From Diphasiastrum complanatum (Eukaryota; Streptophyta; Lycopodiopsida; Lycopodiales; Lycopodiaceae), in the NCBI GenBank assembly GCA_029204225.1, contig CM055092.1:58735296-58799295 (forward strand): 64,000 nt of DNA, read 5' to 3'. Positions 8,822-59,180 of the stretch are shown in pieces (the stretch's first letter is position 1; each line of letters opens with the position of its first letter). Under the pieces are notes generated by a model. It did no database searches. It was given only the letters and a program-made list of their open reading frames with translations, and had not been told where the DNA came from. Both the position numbers and the translations under genes were made by a program.

Positions 8822-9818
8822 TCATGTCACAAGGCCGCTCTTGGTGATTGTAATTTTGGAGTAAGGCTTGTTGAAACCCCTCTCGGCAACTATTGCTCGG
8901 GAATCCCCAATAAGCTTTGCAACCCTGAGAAGAATAAGAAAAGTGATATACATACATTAGAAGACCAGAGAAGGAAAAGTGCATATGCTCGATGAAGCTC
9001 TAAGCAAAATTTCTTCTGCAGACGAAGATTGTTAACATGTGAAGAACAAGAGCACATACTGGAAATAAGGACTGCTTGAGTTATCTTGTACGACTTTCAC
9101 ACTGGCTATCCGTTCCACAACATCCATTCCTTTCAACACCCTCCCTACTACCAAATTGGTCGAATCCAGTTCGGGTGCATCAGCAATTGTAATTGCAAAC
9201 TCTGTGGCATTTGGATCGGGCCGAGATTCCTCCTCAATGATGTCAAATTTACCATCGCGAGCAACAAGTTTGGGCTTTGGTGGAGGCTTGAGAAGATCAA
9301 TGACTACTAGCGAAACAGCAGCTCTCACATTCTTCTTTCTTGAGCCCTTTTTATCCAACTGCTCCATCTCAGCAACTAAGGCATCTGCTGACTGGCCTCC
9401 AGTAATGGTCACTAGGTCTGATGCTCCTCCAGTCAAACTGAATGAGCGTAGCCCAGCATTCTGAATGTAAGATCCTGTTATTTTGTTGAACTCTTTCCGC
9501 CGATATCCTACACCATTCTGACTAGCTGCAAGCTCTGCAAAGCGCTTTGCTCCAATTGGAACATCGTCACCAAAAAGACCAATGATTATCTGTCCTATTG
9601 GTTGCCGGTCTATAGCAACATCAAAAAAGACTTTTTGAGTGATTGCAGGATCGCAATGCCCCATCTGGCATTCATCAGCCCAAGTTAATCTACTATTCTG
9701 CTGACCTTCAAGATAGGTCAAATAGCTCACGACAATAGCAGTTTTTAAGAATGCTGATCTTCGTAGTTGAACGGTATGTGGAACTTCTGCTTTGTCACCA
9801 TCAACTTGCTTAGATAAA
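8822..9818 (-). CDS. Chloroplast (thylakoid-type) cyclophilin, 5' exon(s) missing
   Basis: Cyclophilin-fold peptidyl-prolyl isomerase family, closest from memory to the plant chloroplast CYP26-2 class. Two exons are clear: 9,060-9,818 and 8,822-8,924. The intron 8,925-9,059 has a GTATGT donor and CAG acceptor, and joining restores a Gln codon. The last exon gives VAKLIGDSRAIVAERGF and ends in TGA. The domain starts at KVFFDVAIDRQPIG, then IIGLFGDDVP and ITGSYIQNAG; FDIIEEE, ATEFAIT and VVGRVLKGMDVVE follow. At the position of the usual FHR catalytic arginine the protein reads FNK, so isomerase activity may be weak or absent. Before the domain, RRSAFLKTAIVV looks like a twin-arginine lumen-targeting signal (inference). 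The first exon acceptor is the AG at 9,819-9,820 and the codon phase there is split. I could not place the upstream transit-peptide exon. Confidence 0.85.
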
Positions 9819-35167: not shown

Positions 35168-35671
35168 TCAAATAGGTTGATCATCACATACTTGTTGCTT
35201 TTCTTTCTTGTTTTGTATTGTCTCTAGATGACCATAATTACCTTGACCTGGATTTGCAGATGTTGAAGCATTTAGGAAAGAAGAAGGGTTCTGACCTTGA
35301 TAAACATCTTGTTTTTGTAAAGTAGTACCCATTAGAGATTCAAAACATTACATCATCAACTCTAACATCTTCTCCCAACGTTGATCCAAACTTTCCTACA
35401 TTTGCTGCCATGTTTGTTTATTCACTTCGGTAGTGTCTTGTATAGCAGTTAAAACTTTGATTAATATTTTCTCTGTTCCAGGTGGATTCTCATTGATAGG
35501 AACTTCTTTGGTATTAATTTTTTTTTTGCGGTGCCATATTATTGAACTCAACGTAATAATCACTTTTGCTTTTTACTGCGTTGAAATCCGAGGTCACACA
35601 AAGAAGTTATGAGAATTCACAGAATTCAAAAAAAAAATTCAATGTATATAAGAACTTAGAAAAGGGAAAAC

Positions 35672-36325
35672 TGTGAGAGATTTCAACTAGTTTAGTCTAG
35701 TTTAGTCACATTTTGGTAAATTGTCAATAAGAGGCCAAAACTCATTTTAGACTTAGAGATAAACTTTTTGAAGTTATATTAGTTTAAAATACATTCAATA
35801 AACACTTTTGGAAAGTGTGGGAAAGTTGGTAGTCGAGTTTGAGAGAGATTCAAATTTGAACTTTGGGTACATTGAATCTAGACCCAAAAATAGTAGGGTT
35901 TACATTTTGGAGGGAAAGCCAAGTGGCCAAATAGGTTTTGGAAACTCTATAAAAGGATGTAACTCACGAAGAGACACATCTTCTCTCTTCTCTCTCTCAT
36001 TTCATCATTATACATGGTTCTCTTTGGGTTCTACTACTCATTGGTGAACTATCTTGGTGTTATCTTGCAATTCTATGTGTAGAATGATCATTTGTTGTTA
36101 TTTTCGGTTTCACACGTGTGAAATATAGTAGGGTACTGTAATTGTACAGACACCAAACATATTTTATGTTTTGGTTCATGTTTGATCAATATCTCTTAGA
36201 GTTTGCATCTCATTTTGTATGTAGATGCTGATTTTTCTACATTGGCAGGATTGTTGGTTTTCTCCTTATTGTAACCAAAGATTTGGGACATGGATTGGAT
36301 CTTGAATGATCTGAAATCCTTCACA
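35672..36325 (+). repeat. 5' LTR of the young element
   Basis: Contains the TATA box CTATAAAAGGA at about 35,949. A 79-codon frame inside (35,808-36,047) is kept in both LTRs but looks incidental. Confidence 0.95.
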
Positions 36326-36337
36326 TGGTATCAGAGC
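36326..36337 (+). other. Primer binding site (initiator tRNA-Met)
   Basis: TGGTATCAGAGC directly after the 5' LTR. Confidence 0.9.
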
Positions 36338-36907
36338 TCTTGTGTTTCAGGTTATGAAAGGATCAGCCATCTTTAGCAAGGATTTGGAGGAGTTACCAAT
36401 GCTAGAGCATGCTAGATTGATCTCTACTCAAAAATCAGCATTTTTGCATGTGTAGAATTGATCTTTTGTAAGTCAAAACTCAATATAGGGTTATATACTT
36501 GATCAATTCCGATTTCACACTTGGTTTACTGGATTTAGATGATATTTGGTGCATTAGGAAGGTCTCATTGGAGTTTACAAGAAATTGCATGTAGAATTTG
36601 AGATATTCAATTTTTTGTTATTTTGTCAAAACCCTAATTTTGATTGGATCTCTAGTTTGTGAGGTTACTGAACTTCATTTGAGTGTGTTTCATTCTTAGG
36701 AAGTGGCAAGAATCATTAGATTGAGGATAGATCATAGGTTAATCAAGATTTCACTATTCTATGTGTTGATTTTCTAGTTAGTAGTGCTAGAAGAGATTTG
36801 AGAGGTTCCATATCTTTGTGATTTCTTCTTGAGCTCATTTGTTGACATTCAAGAGAGTGCTTTGTGCATTGGAACAGGTTGAAAGAAGAAGATCATGTCA
36901 CTTCAAC

Positions 36908-38839
36908 ATGGCTACAAGTGGTGGATTTATGTTGGAGAGCAATGATAGGCTTACCTCAATCAACTATTCTACTTGGAAGGTGAGGATGGAGTCCTTATTG
37001 GAGATGAATGAGTTGATGGAGATTGTTGCAGGTGTGGAGGAGAGACCTCAAGCACTTTAAGATCAAGTGAGGTATGACAAGAGAGCAAAGAAAGCTCTAA
37101 AGATGAATGTTACCAATGAACTTCTCAAGGAAGTTGGTAAGTGCACATCATCTTTGGAGGCTTGGGAAGCTTTGAATAAGCTTTATGAATCCAAGTCTAC
37201 ATCAAAAGTGCTTACTCTTAGGAGGCAAATCTTTCAAAGTTTGCAAAAGAAGGAAGAGAGTACTCATGCTTTTGTTTTGAGGGTTAAAGCATTCAATGAT
37301 GAGTTAGCATGTATTGATGAAAGCATTAAGGAGGTAGAACTTGTTCAAGTTATACTTAATGGCTTGTTGGATGATCATGCTAATCTTGTTCAAAGTTTTG
37401 CTATTCAAAAGACTTTGCAAAGTATTGTGGATTTGCAAAAGATCTTGGTGAATGAGGAGTATAGGCTTCAATCAAGAAGAGGTGGATCTACATCGACATC
37501 TCATTATGAAGAGGAGGCTATGTTCATCAAAGGCAAGTTCAAGGGCAAAGGCAAAGGCAAGTGGTCTAAAGGGCAAGATCAAGGTGAGACTTTCTCTTTT
37601 GGAAAAAAGAAAGATAAGTCTAAGTTGAAATGCTTTTATTGTGGAATCAAAGGGCATTTTGCAAATGAATGTTTGAAGAAGCAAAGAGATGAAGGTAGCA
37701 AGCAAATCAACTTTACTACTAATGATGAGGATCTAGGTGGTGGTGATTCTCTTTTGATGTGTTCTTCAAGTTCAATGTCAAGTGAAGGTGACAAAGATTC
37801 ATGGTGGATTGATAGTGGAGCTAGTTCACACATGACTAGTCACAAGGAGTTCTTTACTTCTTTGGTCACTTATGATGGAGCCAAGAAAACAATTCACATG
37901 GCCAATGGTGGTGAGTGTGTGATTGAAGGTATTGGTTCAATTCCTATTTGTCTCTCTACTAATAGGAAAGCAAGACTTGATGGTGTTCTTTACATTACTT
38001 CACTTTCAAAGGATTTGCTAAGTGTTGGTCAAATGATAAAGAAAGGATACATGGTAAAGTTTGGTGGTGATGCTTGTTTCATTACAAAGAAAGAAATCTT
38101 GGTTGCTAGGGGCAATAAACAAGGTAGACTTTTCAAGCTTGATGCTTCTGTTATGGCTAACAAAAAGGATGGAATGGAAAAGGAGATTGGTCTCAACTTT
38201 CCAAAGTTCCCTTTTAGCATCAATAAGATTGGTGGATCTTCTGCAAAGTCTAACAAGCTTCCTTATGCTAGATCTAGGTCAAGATCTAATATGCTTCTTG
38301 GAGATGTTCATCTTTGTGCTAACTTGGCTAGTCTTGAGGATAATGATGGTGTTTCAATGGTTCTTCATGGCAAGTGCAAGCATGCAAAAGGTAAGGAAAG
38401 AGCTAACTTCATCAATGGAGGTGGTGAAGGTTCTTCCTTGGAAAAGATTGTTGCTAATGATTTCTTTGATCATATGGAAAAAGATGTTGCTAGGTGCATT
38501 CATGAAGGAGGTGGTTCTTCTACATTCTTTTGTGATGAGTCCAAGAAAGTCATTTTTGCAGCAAGTGGATTCACATTTCTTCATAAAGAAAGTAGATCAA
38601 ATGGTTCTATCAAGAGACTTGGTGAGGGAGATAGTCACAAGTCAAGAAGAAGAGAAGTATGTGAAGAGTTCAAAGTAGGATGTACTTTGAATGATGTCAT
38701 TGTGAATGATAGTGAGGAAGAATCATTATCATATGATTCATTACCTAAAACATTGAGTAGAAGTTCTTCTTTGAAAAAAGAGAGTACTTCAATCATCCTT
38801 ATGTTGAAGGTACTAATCATATCTTTTCATGGCTTCTAA
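36908..38839 (+). pseudogene. Young element ORF1: gag-protease with novel C-terminus
   Basis: Starts at ATG 36,908 (MATSGG). One TAA at 37,058-37,060 interrupts the frame after 50 codons, and the same frame then stays open to 38,839. Order: DUF4219-like INYSTWKVRMESLLEMNEL, UBN2-type gag (LEAWEALNKLYESKS), a basic Lys/Gly stretch, an intact zinc knuckle CFYCGIKGHFANEC (37,631-37,672), an intact protease box WWIDSGASSHMTSH (about 37,801-37,842) and LSKDLLSVGQM. The last 230 or so residues, where GAG-pre-integrase and integrase should begin, are unlike copia: RSRSRSN, LHGKCKHAKGKER, Ser-rich and acidic stretches. The stop overlaps the ORF2 start by 11 nt. Confidence 0.8.
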
Positions 38840-39926
38840 TGTTTTTGAGGTTTCTACTTTTTATGATGCAATCATTAAGAGGGATTCTTATGAAGGAAAG
38901 AGCAATGGAAAACTGGTTCTTGGGAAGATCCAAGACATGGATCTCACATATCTTCATCAACTCAAAGGATTCTATGATCGTGAATTGATCACTCATGATC
39001 GAGATGGCAAAAGGTTGGTTGGAGAAGACTACATGGAACAAATCGAGAGGCAATTTCTTCAAGACAAGGGAGATCTCATTGGTGAGCTTATTGAGGTTTT
39101 GTATGAACTCAAGAGGGCTGGATTTCTTAGGTTTGATACTCATCTTCACCTACTCTACTTCGTGTTGGATGGAAAGTTTGGAATCTATCTTTTGATTTAT
39201 GATGGTGACATTGTTTTCACTAACCTTTGTGGAAATTCGAGATCAAGCATTGATGAGATCTTGTTGGATCTAGATCATATGTTTGAAAGAGATTATTTCC
39301 AGAGGTTCAGGTCTGAAGATATTCATATCTTTGATATCTTTGATGATCAAGAGAAAGGTAAGCAAGTGAAAGCGACACACTTTGCTTTACTCACATGTTT
39401 TGGAGAATTTTCTTATGTAGATGATGCTATGCAAGTGGATATTGGTTCTCATGGTTTTCATACTGGAAAAGCAAGTAATGGATCTGGAAAACAAAGTTTG
39501 TTCAATGACTTTGATGATCAAGAGGAAGATCAAGAGGTTGGTCTCAAAGGGCTTCAACAACACAAAAGGAAAGGTGGCAATTTGGAGCTAGTCAAGAGCA
39601 TCAAAGGAAGGTTATTTGGCAAAGATGTTATGGATCTGTTTTTGCAACTTATTGAAGACTCAAGTAAGGTCAAAGGAGCAGCAAGGAAGTGTTTTTCAAG
39701 TTTACTTTACTTGTTCTATCTCATGTTTGAGCGATTTCATGTGGATGTGTGCAAATTGTCAAGATATGGACAAACTAGCTACATTGTCTTGCAATATCTT
39801 ATTGTTGGAGTTGTACTAGCATTCTTGGCTGGTTTTGCTGATGGAAATGAGGCTAATGGAGGCTCATTATATCACTCATCCATGATCAAGTTCTCAAGTG
39901 TTGAGCTACTTGGTGCCAATACTTGA
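38829..39926 (+). CDS. Young element ORF2, 365 aa, unknown
   Basis: ATG at 38,829 lies within the last four codons of ORF1, in the +1 frame relative to it. The whole 365 codons are open. I recognise no family with confidence. Around residues 85-130 a stretch with ELIEVLYELKRAGFLRFDTH, LDGKFGIYLLIYDGDI and later LDHMFERDYFQRFRSEDI loosely recalls a kinase catalytic loop and following segment, but HRD and DFG motifs are not present, so this is speculative. It is acidic in the middle (DDQEEDQE). A hydrophobic segment near residues 320-340 (YIVLQYLIVGVVLAFLAGF) could span a membrane. No RT, RNase H or integrase motif is present. It may be a captured host gene or a new accessory protein. Confidence 0.55.
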   Translation: MASNVFEVSTFYDAIIKRDSYEGKSNGKLVLGKIQDMDLTYLHQLKGFYDRELITHDRDGKRLVGEDYMEQIERQFLQDKGDLIGELIEVLYELKRAGFLRFDTHLHLLYFVLDGKFGIYLLIYDGDIVFTNLCGNSRSSIDEILLDLDHMFERDYFQRFRSEDIHIFDIFDDQEKGKQVKATHFALLTCFGEFSYVDDAMQVDIGSHGFHTGKASNGSGKQSLFNDFDDQEEDQEVGLKGLQQHKRKGGNLELVKSIKGRLFGKDVMDLFLQLIEDSSKVKGAARKCFSSLLYLFYLMFERFHVDVCKLSRYGQTSYIVLQYLIVGVVLAFLAGFADGNEANGGSLYHSSMIKFSSVELLGANT

Positions 39927-39949
39927 GATTGTCAATTTTTGGTGAATTT

Positions 39950-40480
39950 ATGGTCATTTTCTTGTGTCAAGTAGATCTTGAAGATGGACTAGTGCAACCT
40001 ACTTGGTTTATGGAGTCATGTGGTGCTAGATTTGCATCATTAATGTACTCACCTACTCATGGATTTCCAAGGTTTGATGGTTTCTTGTGGCAAGATGGAG
40101 ATGGAGGCTCATTCATGGAGTTTTATGGTGGAGACATATCAAGAAAGGACAAAGTTGGAGGACACAAGCAAGCAAATGGTCATCACTCACATTTATTGTT
40201 TGGTTGCTGTAATTTTCCAGAGAGTACAAAGTTTGAAACATGGAGGAATCATCTCATTCACATTCTATTTGGTTCTTCATGTTCTAGTTATATCTTGATG
40301 TGCAAAATTGATGTAAGAAATAGTGAAGCATCCAATTTGGACACTATTCTCTATATCAATTATGAAAGATACTTTAGAACCTTAGAAAGAAGATCTATAC
40401 TTAGGATGGAGATCATTCTAAAGTTGGATCAAAGTTCTATTGTCAAAACTATGCCAAAACTAGTTGAAGAGGGAGTGTGA
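39950..40480 (+). CDS. Young element ORF3, about 176 aa, unknown
   Basis: The open frame begins at 39,923, overlapping the end of ORF2 in the -1 frame. The first ATG is 39,950. It ends inside the first bases of the 3' LTR. There is a Gly/Asp/Phe-rich middle (WQDGDGGSFMEFYGGDIS) and a His-rich part. TKFETWRNHL near residue 100 faintly recalls the tail of copia RNase H (KFExxRxxL), which might be the only relic of pol. No firm assignment. Confidence 0.45.
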   Translation: MVIFLCQVDLEDGLVQPTWFMESCGARFASLMYSPTHGFPRFDGFLWQDGDGGSFMEFYGGDISRKDKVGGHKQANGHHSHLLFGCCNFPESTKFETWRNHLIHILFGSSCSSYILMCKIDVRNSEASNLDTILYINYERYFRTLERRSILRMEIILKLDQSSIVKTMPKLVEEGV

Positions 40481-41129
40481 GAGATTTCAACTAGTTTAGT
40501 CTAGTTTAGTCACATTTTGATAAATTGTCAATAAGAGGCCAAAACTCATTTTAGACTTAGAGATAAACTTTTTGAAGTTATATTAGTTTAAAATACATTC
40601 AATAAACACTTTTGGAAAGTGTGGGAAAGTTGGTATTCGAGTTTGAGAGAGATTCAAATTTGAACTTTGGGTACATTGAATCTAGACCCAAAAATAGTAG
40701 GGTTTACATTTTGGAAGGAAAGCCAAGTGGCCAAATAGGTTTTGGAAACTCTATAAAAGGATGTAACTCATGGAGAGACACATCTTCTCTCTTCTCTCTC
40801 TCATTTCATCATTATACATGGTTCTCTTTGGGTTCTACTACTCATTGGTGCACTATCTTGGTGTTATCTTGCAATTCTATGTGTAGAATGATCATTTGTT
40901 GCTATTTTCGGTTTCACACGTGTGAAATACAGTAGGGTACTGTAATTGTACGGACAACAAACATATTTTATGTTTTGGTTCATGTTTGATCAATATCTCT
41001 TAGAGTTTGCATCTCATTTTGTATGTAGATGCTGATTTTTCTACATTGGCAGGATTGTTGGTTTGCTCCTTATTGTAACCAAAGATTTGGGACATGGATT
41101 GGATCTTGAATGATCTGAAATTCTTCACA
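40476..41129 (+). repeat. 3' LTR of the young element
   Basis: Preceded by GAAGAGGGAG (polypurine tract). Same length as the 5' LTR. Confidence 0.95.
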
Positions 41130-41315
41130 GAAACGACAAATAGAAAAAATAAAATAAAATTGGAGGAATTTACAGAAGTAAAGCTATTGTATTGAGCTCA
41201 AAGAACTGAGCACTTTTTGCTCGTGCAGTACCGAAATCCGGGATCATATAAAAAAGTTATGGAAGTTTGAAAAACTTGGTGGAGAACAAGAAATGAACGA
41301 ACTTAGAAATAAAAT

Positions 41316-44779: not shown

Positions 44780-44985
44780 ATTATAACAATGCATTCACAT
44801 TCATCTTGATAATGTGTAGGGATTTCTTTGCCCTCTTATCATACCTCAATTGCTCTTGAGGTGCCAAAAGTCTCTCCTCCACACCTACAACAATATCCAT
44901 CAACTCATTCATCTCTAGCAAGGACTCCATCCTCACCTTCTAAGTTGAATAATTGCTTGATGTAAGCTATATGTCCATGACATGT
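44780..44985 (-). pseudogene. Relict gag related to the young element
   Basis: Minus-strand reading has KVRMESLLEMNELMDIVVGV, then APQEQLRYDKRAKKSL, nearly the same as the start of ORF1 of the young element (positions 36,960-37,110). It has stops and no LTRs. At the place of the TAA in the young element this relict is open. Confidence 0.7.
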
Positions 44986-57022: not shown

Positions 57023-57461
57023 AAATAATATATTGGAAGAAGTATGAAGTGAGGGCAGTAGTAGTAGTAGTTAGGTTGCTTCTTGCTCTCTGCATTTTTG
57101 TTCAGTGCTGCTGCATACATAAATAGATACATGGTAGTAGTGTGAGAGAAAGGAGAGAGAGAGAGAGAGGAGAGGAGAAGGGAGGTGCGAGGCTGAGTGA
57201 GAGAGAAGGAAGATGATGAAGTAATTGGTTTAGAAGGGAAATGTATGTTTGGCATTGCAGAAGTCATGGAGCAGTTGCATTGATAGGAGGCGCTTCCATA
57301 ACAAACTCCATTCTTCTGCTACATCTTGAAATGAAAATGTGAATTGGGCAAAGTGAAGATTATGATGTGCTGCTGAAGGCGCCTCTAGGAAGGACGCGTG
57401 GTGTCTTTGTTTCTTTCTCTGTTGAGGAACGGCACAAATATTGAACAAAGAATTAGTGGTC

Positions 57462-59180
57462 ATGGCTTTCTATTCCAATCACATGGGGGAAGAAAGCGAG
57501 CAGCAGGAGCTGCAAGGGCGAGAAACATTTGACGTGACAGAATACAGATTGCGCCAACAAGCCATGGCAATGACTGAACATAGACCAATGCCTCATAATT
57601 TTATTAGCTTTCCAGATCAAAGATTGCGACAGGAAAGAGCGCAGATGATGGCCGATAGGCTGCAGCAAGAAGCTCTGGATTTTGCACATTACCGGCAGCC
57701 AGGCAATAGTAATGATCAGATACTTGGAAGATTGCAGCCGGAAACAGTGGAGATTCTGGAGCATAGAATGCGGCAGGAAGCCATGCAAATAGCATCAGCT
57801 AGGCTGCAGCGGGAACACAGCATGCAAATGGAAGGGAACAGGCTGCGTCAGGAAGCGTCAGCGCTTGTTGAGCATAGGTTAAGGTTGGAAGGGATTCATG
57901 TGATGGAAGGAGAGAGGCTACGGCAAGAAGCTTTGGCTTTTGTGGAGCACAGGTTGAGGCAGGAAGGCATGGAGATGGCAGGTGAGAGATTGCTGCAGGA
58001 AGTGTTAGTGCTCTTGGAGCATCGGCTGCGGCAAGAAGAAATGCAGGGTGGGCATCATAGATTACATCAGGTAGGCTTAGAGATAGGAGGAAATTACAGA
58101 GTGCAGCAGGGAGCTTTGGGTGTGGGAGAGCAGAGGTTACAAGAGGATTTTGAGATTGAGGGTGATAAGATGCATTGTGAAAGTTTGGAAGAGGGCTCAG
58201 CCCAAGAGGAAGATGATGAGTATGGGTATGGGGAGCACAGGCTGCCAATCCTCGAGTTGGCTGATCGTAGGATGCACCAGGGACAGAGCTATGTAGAGCA
58301 CACGATGCGAGAGGAGCGGGATGATTACGAGGAGCGCAGCCTGCACCACATGAGCTTGGAGATGAGGGGCCATAGGGTTCCTCCTCAAGAAACCTACGCA
58401 GGCCACGGGTTGCAGACCCAAAGATTGGAAGTGGAGGAGCAAGGGATGCAGCAGGAAGAGGAAGAGGAAGAGCAAGAGGGTACATCGCACAGGCTGCAAG
58501 ATGGAAACTTAGAGATGGAGGAGCAGGAAGTAAACCTGAATGAGGAAAGGTATGCACAGACCACGCTGGAGCATGACAGTTCGGAGATTGGGAGGCATCG
58601 GTTCCATCAGGAAGAGGAACAGTTTGTAAAAGAAGGTTTGCAGAATGGAAACTTAGCGATAGATGAGCAAAGATTTTCTCGTGACCATGGTGATTATCAG
58701 GAGCACGACCATCAGAATGAAGCCTTGGAATTGCGGAATGAGATGCAAGAGGATAAGTTGGAAAACATTCTGGAGATGCAAGATGAGAGAATGCAGGAGG
58801 GTGAGCAGATTGGAGAGCACTTAATACAGCATGAAGGCTCGGATATAGAAAATAGGATGCAGCAGGAGAATGAGCAGACGGAGGACTTTACTCGAAGCAA
58901 TCGCGCCATCCCTCCACAAGTCCGAAAAGCAATTCTGGCTGTTTTGATGGCTGTCTTAGCGGTGCTCATGATGCTGGTGCATCACCTCCAACAGCAGCGA
59001 GCAAGGAGATGGGAAGAGAGTTTCTTTGACACCTGCGGTCTTGAAACAGACGAATTGATGGTTGCTGCAATGTTACAACTTCATCAAATGCAAACACTAG
59101 CAAGCAGCCTATCTGCTGAGTTTGAAGATGACAATACATTAGAGGAAGAATATGGAAGTGATTTTGAAAGTGATGCATAG
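57462..59180 (+). CDS. 12-residue tandem-repeat protein with C-terminal membrane segment
   Basis: 572 aa from the first in-frame ATG (MAFYSNHMGEES); no intron is needed. I do not recognise a family. From residue 54 to about 237 a unit of the form RLRQExxxxxxE recurs every 12 or 13 residues (Arg of each unit at 54, 66, 78, 90, 102, 114, 127, 139, 152, 164, 176, 188, 200, 213, 225), about 15 units. The best preserved are EHRLRQE and ERLRQEAL. The middle (240-480) is very acidic with degenerate units (EEEEEEQEG at 332-340). Residues 489-506 (KAILAVLMAVLAVLMMLV) form one hydrophobic segment flanked by RK before and RARRW after. The acidic tail ends EEEYGSDFESDA. The likely product is a long helical, membrane-anchored protein; N-terminal side topology is unknown. 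No signal peptide is seen. Codon usage is GC-richer than nearby transposons, and the long open frame beside promoter motifs argues for a real gene. Confidence 0.75.
   Translation: MAFYSNHMGEESEQQELQGRETFDVTEYRLRQQAMAMTEHRPMPHNFISFPDQRLRQERAQMMADRLQQEALDFAHYRQPGNSNDQILGRLQPETVEILEHRMRQEAMQIASARLQREHSMQMEGNRLRQEASALVEHRLRLEGIHVMEGERLRQEALAFVEHRLRQEGMEMAGERLLQEVLVLLEHRLRQEEMQGGHHRLHQVGLEIGGNYRVQQGALGVGEQRLQEDFEIEGDKMHCESLEEGSAQEEDDEYGYGEHRLPILELADRRMHQGQSYVEHTMREERDDYEERSLHHMSLEMRGHRVPPQETYAGHGLQTQRLEVEEQGMQQEEEEEEQEGTSHRLQDGNLEMEEQEVNLNEERYAQTTLEHDSSEIGRHRFHQEEEQFVKEGLQNGNLAIDEQRFSRDHGDYQEHDHQNEALELRNEMQEDKLENILEMQDERMQEGEQIGEHLIQHEGSDIENRMQQENEQTEDFTRSNRAIPPQVRKAILAVLMAVLAVLMMLVHHLQQQRARRWEESFFDTCGLETDELMVAAMLQLHQMQTLASSLSAEFEDDNTLEEEYGSDFESDA

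Follow-up and report, generated by a model that had tools for sequence, protein, structure and literature searches.

A non-autonomous Ty1/copia lineage of a clubmoss with a long open frame in the place of pol

In rice, Dasheng and RIRE2 swap long terminal repeats (LTRs) and exchange parts between families, and in helper-dependent derivatives of plant RNA viruses the openness of a frame may matter more than the protein it encodes. TR-GAG elements are defined as LTR elements with GAG only or with GAG plus an AP domain (PMC6022998). The window analyzed here, 64,000 nucleotides of the clubmoss Diphasiastrum complanatum (assembly GCA_029204225.1, contig CM055092.1, positions 58,735,296 to 58,799,295), holds at 35672–41129 an element, here family A, that is a non-autonomous Ty1/copia lineage of clubmoss and operationally a TR-GAG element. 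It resembles TR-GAG elements such as AT5TE33540 of Arabidopsis in its LTRs, its gag (in family A also a protease), the lack of a working pol, recent mobility and a presumed helper in trans; TR-GAG elements are described as a single gag open reading frame (ORF) or gag plus AP (PMC8704663), whereas here the frame runs on without a stop for about 760 more codons, up to the 3′ LTR, and this stretch drifts neutrally. This open, neutrally drifting frame is a new part relative to TR-GAG. Dasheng/RIRE2 and a soybean non-autonomous family are similar in pairing a high-copy non-autonomous element with an autonomous partner (PMC3701649). Unlike Dasheng/RIRE2, the clubmoss element keeps a constrained gag and exchanges its 3′ module, and no autonomous partner with matching LTRs, as an earlier note on this DNA had envisaged, was found in a hunt that is incomplete genome-wide. 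Unlike the viral derivatives, it is a genomic retroelement.

The element encodes its own constrained Gag, in family A also a protease, and has no recognizable working pol. Our best explanation, to which we give slightly better than even odds, is a TR-GAG-like lineage with an eroded pol, a frame kept open without constraint on the protein, and pol supplied in trans. Open frames are usually read as functional protein; here ~760 codons in highly successful elements remain open with no detectable overall protein constraint. The open-licence literature (titles and abstract beginnings) yielded nothing recognized on this family or on LTR elements that keep a frame open without constraining its protein.

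The window element and its families

The window element has paired TG..CA LTRs, a primer-binding site (PBS), a polypurine tract and a target-site duplication, as expected of an LTR retrotransposon. Alignment gives exactly 12 mismatches over 654 bases for the 654-bp LTR pair (8 transitions; Kimura two-parameter distance 0.0186), matching the earlier count by eye, and the PBS TGGTATCAGAGC, presumably of the initiator-Met tRNA type, the polypurine tract GAAGAGGGAG, and the zinc knuckle and protease motif (both by Pfam) were likewise recovered. The target-site duplication is exact in three of four further two-LTR loci (L009, L011 and L012), with one mismatch in L010. Against profiles from 34 copia polyproteins, gag scores E 1e-46 and protease E 3e-33, as in Ty1/copia. 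The copia pol order of integrase (IN), reverse transcriptase (RT) and RNase H (RNH) is seen in a relative, family D, while family A and a second family, B, have no readable pol. Pfam finds no IN, RT or RNH family in the window element or in the pieces of A and B, and the place of the YVDD motif of an autonomous copia RT reads YDGD in A and YDGG in B. The absence of pol claimed in the earlier note holds for integrase, RNase H and a working RT, and fails in that a probable eroded RT relict remains. The frames of 1203 codons (A) and 1053 codons (B) exceed the described TR-GAG type, and no stated criterion rules them out.

In the window copy, gag is interrupted by an in-frame stop at 37058–37060, after 50 codons. 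Open frames then span 37061–38836, 38817–39923 and 39905–40477, with overlaps of 20 and 19 nt, and ORF lengths in 38150–40475 are beyond chance (0/2000 in each of three Markov models). Since the three long frames overlap by ~20 nt, they form one broken reading frame: ORF1, ORF2 and ORF3 are pieces of a single long frame broken twice, not gag plus two extra genes. At the two frame-break sites, 12/16 and 8/16 other aligned rows differ by one base in length from the window copy, not all 16 rows spanning both sites. The two long ORFs "of unknown kind" seen earlier are therefore pieces of one frame, part of which is probably eroded RT.

First-look candidate numbers below are word hits, not copies; identities and frames come from scored matches. 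The LTR search of the genome returned 97–100% identity in 40 scored of 2855 first-look candidates, and the ORF2 search 88–100% identity in all 112 scored of 15,031. By our own count, a stop-free 1203-codon frame (stop to stop) runs through 16 of these 112 family A copies. Among 20 loci fetched around LTR matches, 13 carry both ORF2 and ORF3, although two of them, L012 and L020, resemble duplicates of L011 and L018; ORF2 and ORF3 are hence kept elsewhere, as the earlier note had asked. The other seven comprise one cut at the fetched edge, one interrupted in gag with the rest past the edge, two that continue into a decayed RNase H end (L014 and L015, a likely duplicate pair), one that continues into decayed copia pol (L023), and two solo LTRs (L021 and L027). 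A normal copia pol, which the earlier note had said would count against its own reading, stands in none of the 20: the pol of L023 has stops, and L014/L015 retain decayed RNase H. Five family A LTR pairs differ by 5–12 mismatches each. The recently mobile, non-autonomous lineage proposed earlier is thereby supported.

Several loci are of interest in themselves. In L023 (C5:42337806 onward), a decayed integrase/RT of copia type is joined at KLPY to a family A LTR-leader-gag-protease; the locus was considered as an autonomous partner and rejected. Because its pol carries stops and the junction appears out of register by eye, we treat it as a fusion, apparently between a copy of A and an old copia. 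L014/L015 and L018/L020 are pairs of closely similar loci, in each case one on a chromosome-size contig and the other on a small contig, and are possible haplotigs. L011 and L012 (C12:18.36 and 18.46 Mb) share the target-site repeat CGGGA and equal LTR divergence ~102 kb apart, and are a probable segmental duplication. Within the window, a 151-bp gag fragment 85% identical to family A lies amid decayed sequence at 44817–44967 (−).

Family B in the D. complanatum genome was reached through P0002, found by the gag search, and shows 98–99% identity in 108 scored of 124,605 first-look candidates, 86 of the 108 having a stop-free 1053-codon frame (own count). Its layout is gag, no protease domain, then the same module as A. 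The LTR of B is homologous to LTR-A at low similarity only (z 7.1), and in two sampled B copies the LTRs are identical over 378/378 and 377/377 comparable bases. A further form, B′ (L019:5629–7614), contains protease and module, its frame already broken in that copy. A segment at the start of ORF3 in A sits inside novA, the first part of the module, in B and B′. A and B are two young families, each with at least 100 closely similar copies, in which the gag and LTRs have diverged and the 3′ module is held in common.

Synonymous divergence between A and B is six-fold lower in the module than in gag, and raw divergence between A and B′ drops near the end of the zinc knuckle, at the gag/protease border. 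Because module divergence is far below that of gag, the 3′ module was exchanged after the gag lineages split; template switching would be the obvious route for its passage between them.

Selection on gag and on the shared module

Natural open copies were compared, with L010 representing A and L036 and L048 representing B. Over 238 codons of gag and zinc knuckle, synonymous divergence (dS) is 1.57 and nonsynonymous divergence (dN) 0.21, giving dN/dS 0.13; over 543 module codons in six segments (0.68–0.98 each), dS is 0.26, dN 0.21 and dN/dS 0.82. Neutral simulation of the module yields a mean dN/dS of 0.85 (0.64–1.12, 500 runs), so the observed 0.82 (P 0.43) is ordinary for no constraint. In the same simulation stops arise 11.9 times on average, and at least 3 times in each of the 500 runs, whereas the real module has none: 313 of 1629 compared module bases differ, with 7 indels, yet the frame is neither stopped nor shifted. 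At first, second and third codon positions, gag has 48, 34 and 118 substitutions and the module, over 419 codons, 71, 82 and 70; for third against first plus second positions, gag and module differ at p 1.2e-8 (Fisher). The module indels, of 90, 9, 3, 36, 3, 9 and 162 bases, are all seven multiples of three, with a probability of 0.0005 if each had a one-third chance; in-frame cutting of both pieces leaves only six of them free, which raises it to about 0.0014. Statistically, the amino-acid changes that separate the A and B modules cannot be told from neutral ones, and none of the compared copies has a stop or a frame-breaking indel there. In view of the neutral protein change, the missing stops and the in-frame indels, selection seems to keep the frame of the module open rather than its protein. 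The dN/dS test that the earlier note had proposed puts gag well below 1 and leaves the module at a neutral value, so that its ORFs are kept open with no overall constraint detected on the protein.

Other comparisons give similar values. Further A copies against B range over 0.80–0.95 for the ORF2 piece (four copies) and 0.12–0.14 for gag (five copies), and comparisons with B′, a decayed copy, give 0.91, 0.99 and 0.89 for the module, 0.23 and 0.16 for gag, and 0.47 for protease. Within A, changes common to at least 2 of 17 rows were counted, leaving out L012, L021, L027 and L029 and then L014 and L020 as duplicates. Shared nonsynonymous (N) and synonymous (S) changes are 12N/13S in gag (0.24), 10N/5S in protease (0.57) and 56N/19S in the module (0.80), with no shared stops (gag vs module p 0.024); two shared ORF2 stops in an earlier 19-row count were gone once duplicates were removed. 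Shared and singleton changes of the module show no difference (p 0.54). Indels present in at least 3 rows are multiples of three, save at the two frame breaks of the window copy.

Several points weigh against selection for openness. Shared changes of ORF2 taken by itself are 26N/13S (0.54), and ORF3 is odd, with 13N/1S, so there may be mild or uneven protein constraint. The A–B contrast amounts to two source lineages, copies inside one family not being independent. L010 was picked for being open, genomic copies include some post-insertion changes, and of the roughly 760 codons in the module, 543 fall within the segments compared.

We regard it as unlikely, though worth serious weight, that the element is an ordinary TR-GAG deletion derivative whose open frame is an unselected leftover too young to break. 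The youth of both families (B LTRs identical in two copies, A pairs at 5–12 mismatches) fits such an origin, as do the neutrally drifting protein and a gag or gag plus protease that falls within the TR-GAG definition; set against these are the many differences and indels between the A and B modules with no stop or frame break, and an RT relict decayed to the edge of detection while the frame stayed open.

A real, fast-evolving accessory protein fused behind Gag-protease (e.g., envelope-like, capsid-modifying or silencing-suppressing) appears less probable again. The long frame in both families, the hydrophobic stretches at the ORF2 C-terminus (by eye) and the shared-change value of ORF2 speak for it, but codon positions are flat, dN/dS is near neutral in A-B, A-B′ and B-B′, no significant family or confident ORF2 fold was obtained, and the module tolerates sizeable in-frame insertions and deletions as well as the relocation of a segment. 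AlphaFold2 modeling of ORF2 (7 rows) returned a predicted local distance difference test score of 29 and a predicted template modeling score of 0.23. We give little credence to maintenance of the module for an RNA function (packaging, dimerization) that slows all codon positions alike: it would suit a module dS far below that of gag, but it leaves the missing stops and in-frame indels unexplained, and the divergence drop at the gag/protease border is what recombination would give.

Origin of the module and a possible reason for its openness

Module pieces of A, B and P0001, a D. complanatum hypothetical protein, have no significant Pfam family, the best being a chance-level I-HmuI_NUMOD-like match (15.6 bits, where the cut-off is 27). 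On a profile built from 34 full-length copia polyproteins (898 pol columns), the first part of ORF2 of A scores 57.0 vs 33.6 ± 4.0 for shuffles (z 5.8, above 200/200; z 5.4 with looser gaps), and the B alignment ends at the same profile column as that of A. The isolated RT-like pieces reach E 9e-4 (A) and 0.028 (B) in a two-sequence HMMER search. The integrase-side and RNase-H-side module parts, the B end piece and reversed A have no score on the pol profile.

Other tests make the support for an RT origin uneven. The B score is weaker (z 1.9 at p 0.055; looser gaps give z 0.7 at p 0.24), the rest of the module has no pol origin detectable with the pol profile, and the whole A module in HMMER gives 1.3 bits, above the 95th percentile (−0.9) and below the maximum (4.3) of 400 shuffles. 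Small profiles based on copias of the window itself and a handful of database proteins gave no RT match, and pairwise comparison with the RT of D gives p 0.02–0.11 (A) and 0.18–0.40 (B). As these pairwise tests are weak, we grade the RT relict no higher than probable: judged from profile similarity, an eroded reverse transcriptase probably makes up the middle of the module, and pol would then have decayed where it stood while the frame stayed open.

Capture of one or more host gene fragments, Bs1-type transduction being an example of such capture by a retroelement, is very improbable: most of the module lacks detectable pol similarity, and only one database protein matches ORF2, making an unannotated clubmoss source conceivable, but that sole match at E ≤ 0.01 (P0001) is another, shortened copy of the window element, and an RT-like stretch lies in the collinear place; with ORF2 as query, no host homologue was found among database proteins of 201–638 aa. 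The host-gene capture raised in the earlier note is accordingly unsupported.

Pol-bearing relatives exist in the databases and in this genome. Gag-protease of A is matched by 51 proteins at 19–32% identity over the matched part, mostly copia polyproteins with pol domains, and P0014, the best database match with pol, has 33% identity to the zinc knuckle, protease and pre-integrase of A. Over these same parts, two Ty1/copia families of the same genome, C and D, are 44% (174 residues) and 45% (170 residues) identical to A. Family D, with 108 scored of 156,162 first-look candidates, differs from A in having integrase, RT and RNase H; in the stretch fetched from one copy, a natural frame of 709 codons encodes an integrase end, an RT with YVDD, and RNase H. 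In family C (L018/L033), gag-protease is followed by an eroded integrase end (E 3e-9, search of seven sequences). The LTR start of D shows no resemblance to LTR-A, which also tells against the proposed dependence, so D is a relative and not a demonstrated partner, and proves only that pol-bearing relatives exist. A scan of viral contigs confirmed no relative. At L018:7275–9500, together with L033, gag-protease of family C occurs twice in tandem (about 82% over 1079 bp), followed by the open, eroded integrase end.

In the explanation that we favor, a TR-GAG-like lineage with its frame kept open, reverse transcription and integration would be supplied in trans by a pol-bearing relative such as D. 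The genomic RNA would double as gag mRNA, and a stop after gag-protease would add about 2.6 kb of 3′ untranslated region (UTR). The stop codon of A falls just inside the 3′ LTR, within its first bases, and that of B 13 bases upstream of the LTR. Translation through to the 3′ LTR would leave approximately the U3 and R regions of the LTR as 3′ UTR, and such a short 3′ UTR may spare the RNA from nonsense-mediated decay (NMD); alternatively, ribosome transit might protect or package the RNA. 3′ UTR length decides NMD restriction of plant viral RNAs, and a virus with one ORF and a short 3′ UTR evaded it, according to PMC5031192; this viral rule makes NMD evasion a concrete candidate reason for a meaningless open frame, and it is the reason we prefer. 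We suggest, tentatively and at somewhat less than even odds, that an eroded pol has become translated filler that shields the RNA, e.g., from NMD, and, as a module, has spread among different gag families within a single clubmoss genome. If so, selection on translatability would be separable from selection on the product, and the families would make it possible to test in nature whether retroelements are shaped by RNA surveillance in plants. It would also advise caution in calling long ORFs in mobile elements genes, P0001 being annotated as a clubmoss protein.

Feature coordinates and neighboring sequences

Table 1. Features of the window element (window coordinates)
Feature	Position	Strand	Basis or remark
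Left target-site repeat AAAAC	35667..35671	.	One mismatch vs right repeat
5′ LTR, 654 bp, TG..CA	35672..36325	+	LTR alignment
TATA-like TATAAAAGG inside 5′ LTR	at 35948	+	
PBS TGGTATCAGAGC..	36326..36340	+	Directly 3′ of 5′ LTR
Untranslated leader	36341..36907	+	Mostly 93–98% in other fetched copies
gag, first 50 codons	36908..37057	+	DUF4219 (Pfam); closed by in-frame stop in window copy
gag (Retrotran_gag_2)	37076–37477, within open stretch 37061..38150	+	Pfam
CCHC zinc knuckle (zf-CCHC)	37628–37672	+	Pfam
Protease region Pol_BBD with WWIDSGASSHM	37802–38050	+	Pfam
Module start (novA, tail of ORF1), where pol would be	38151..38836	+	No significant Pfam family
ORF2, middle of module	38829..39926	+	In other frame in window copy
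Probable eroded RT	39012..39323, limits approximate	+	Profile comparison
YVDD place, reads YDGD	39198–39209	+	
ORF3, module end	39923..40480	+	Stop codon within first bases of 3′ LTR
Polypurine tract GAAGAGGGAG	40466..40475	+	Identical in family B
3′ LTR	40476..41129	+	LTR alignment
Right target-site repeat GAAAC	41130..41134	.	One base off AAAAC

Elsewhere in the window, a 579-aa ORF at 57441–59180 (+) is rich in repeated HRLRQE.. units and has a long antisense ORF and no Pfam family; its DNA contains a 75-bp unit in 1.9 copies. A cyclophilin-type peptidyl-prolyl isomerase domain lies at 9032–9730 (−), with a Pfam E of 7.9e-16.

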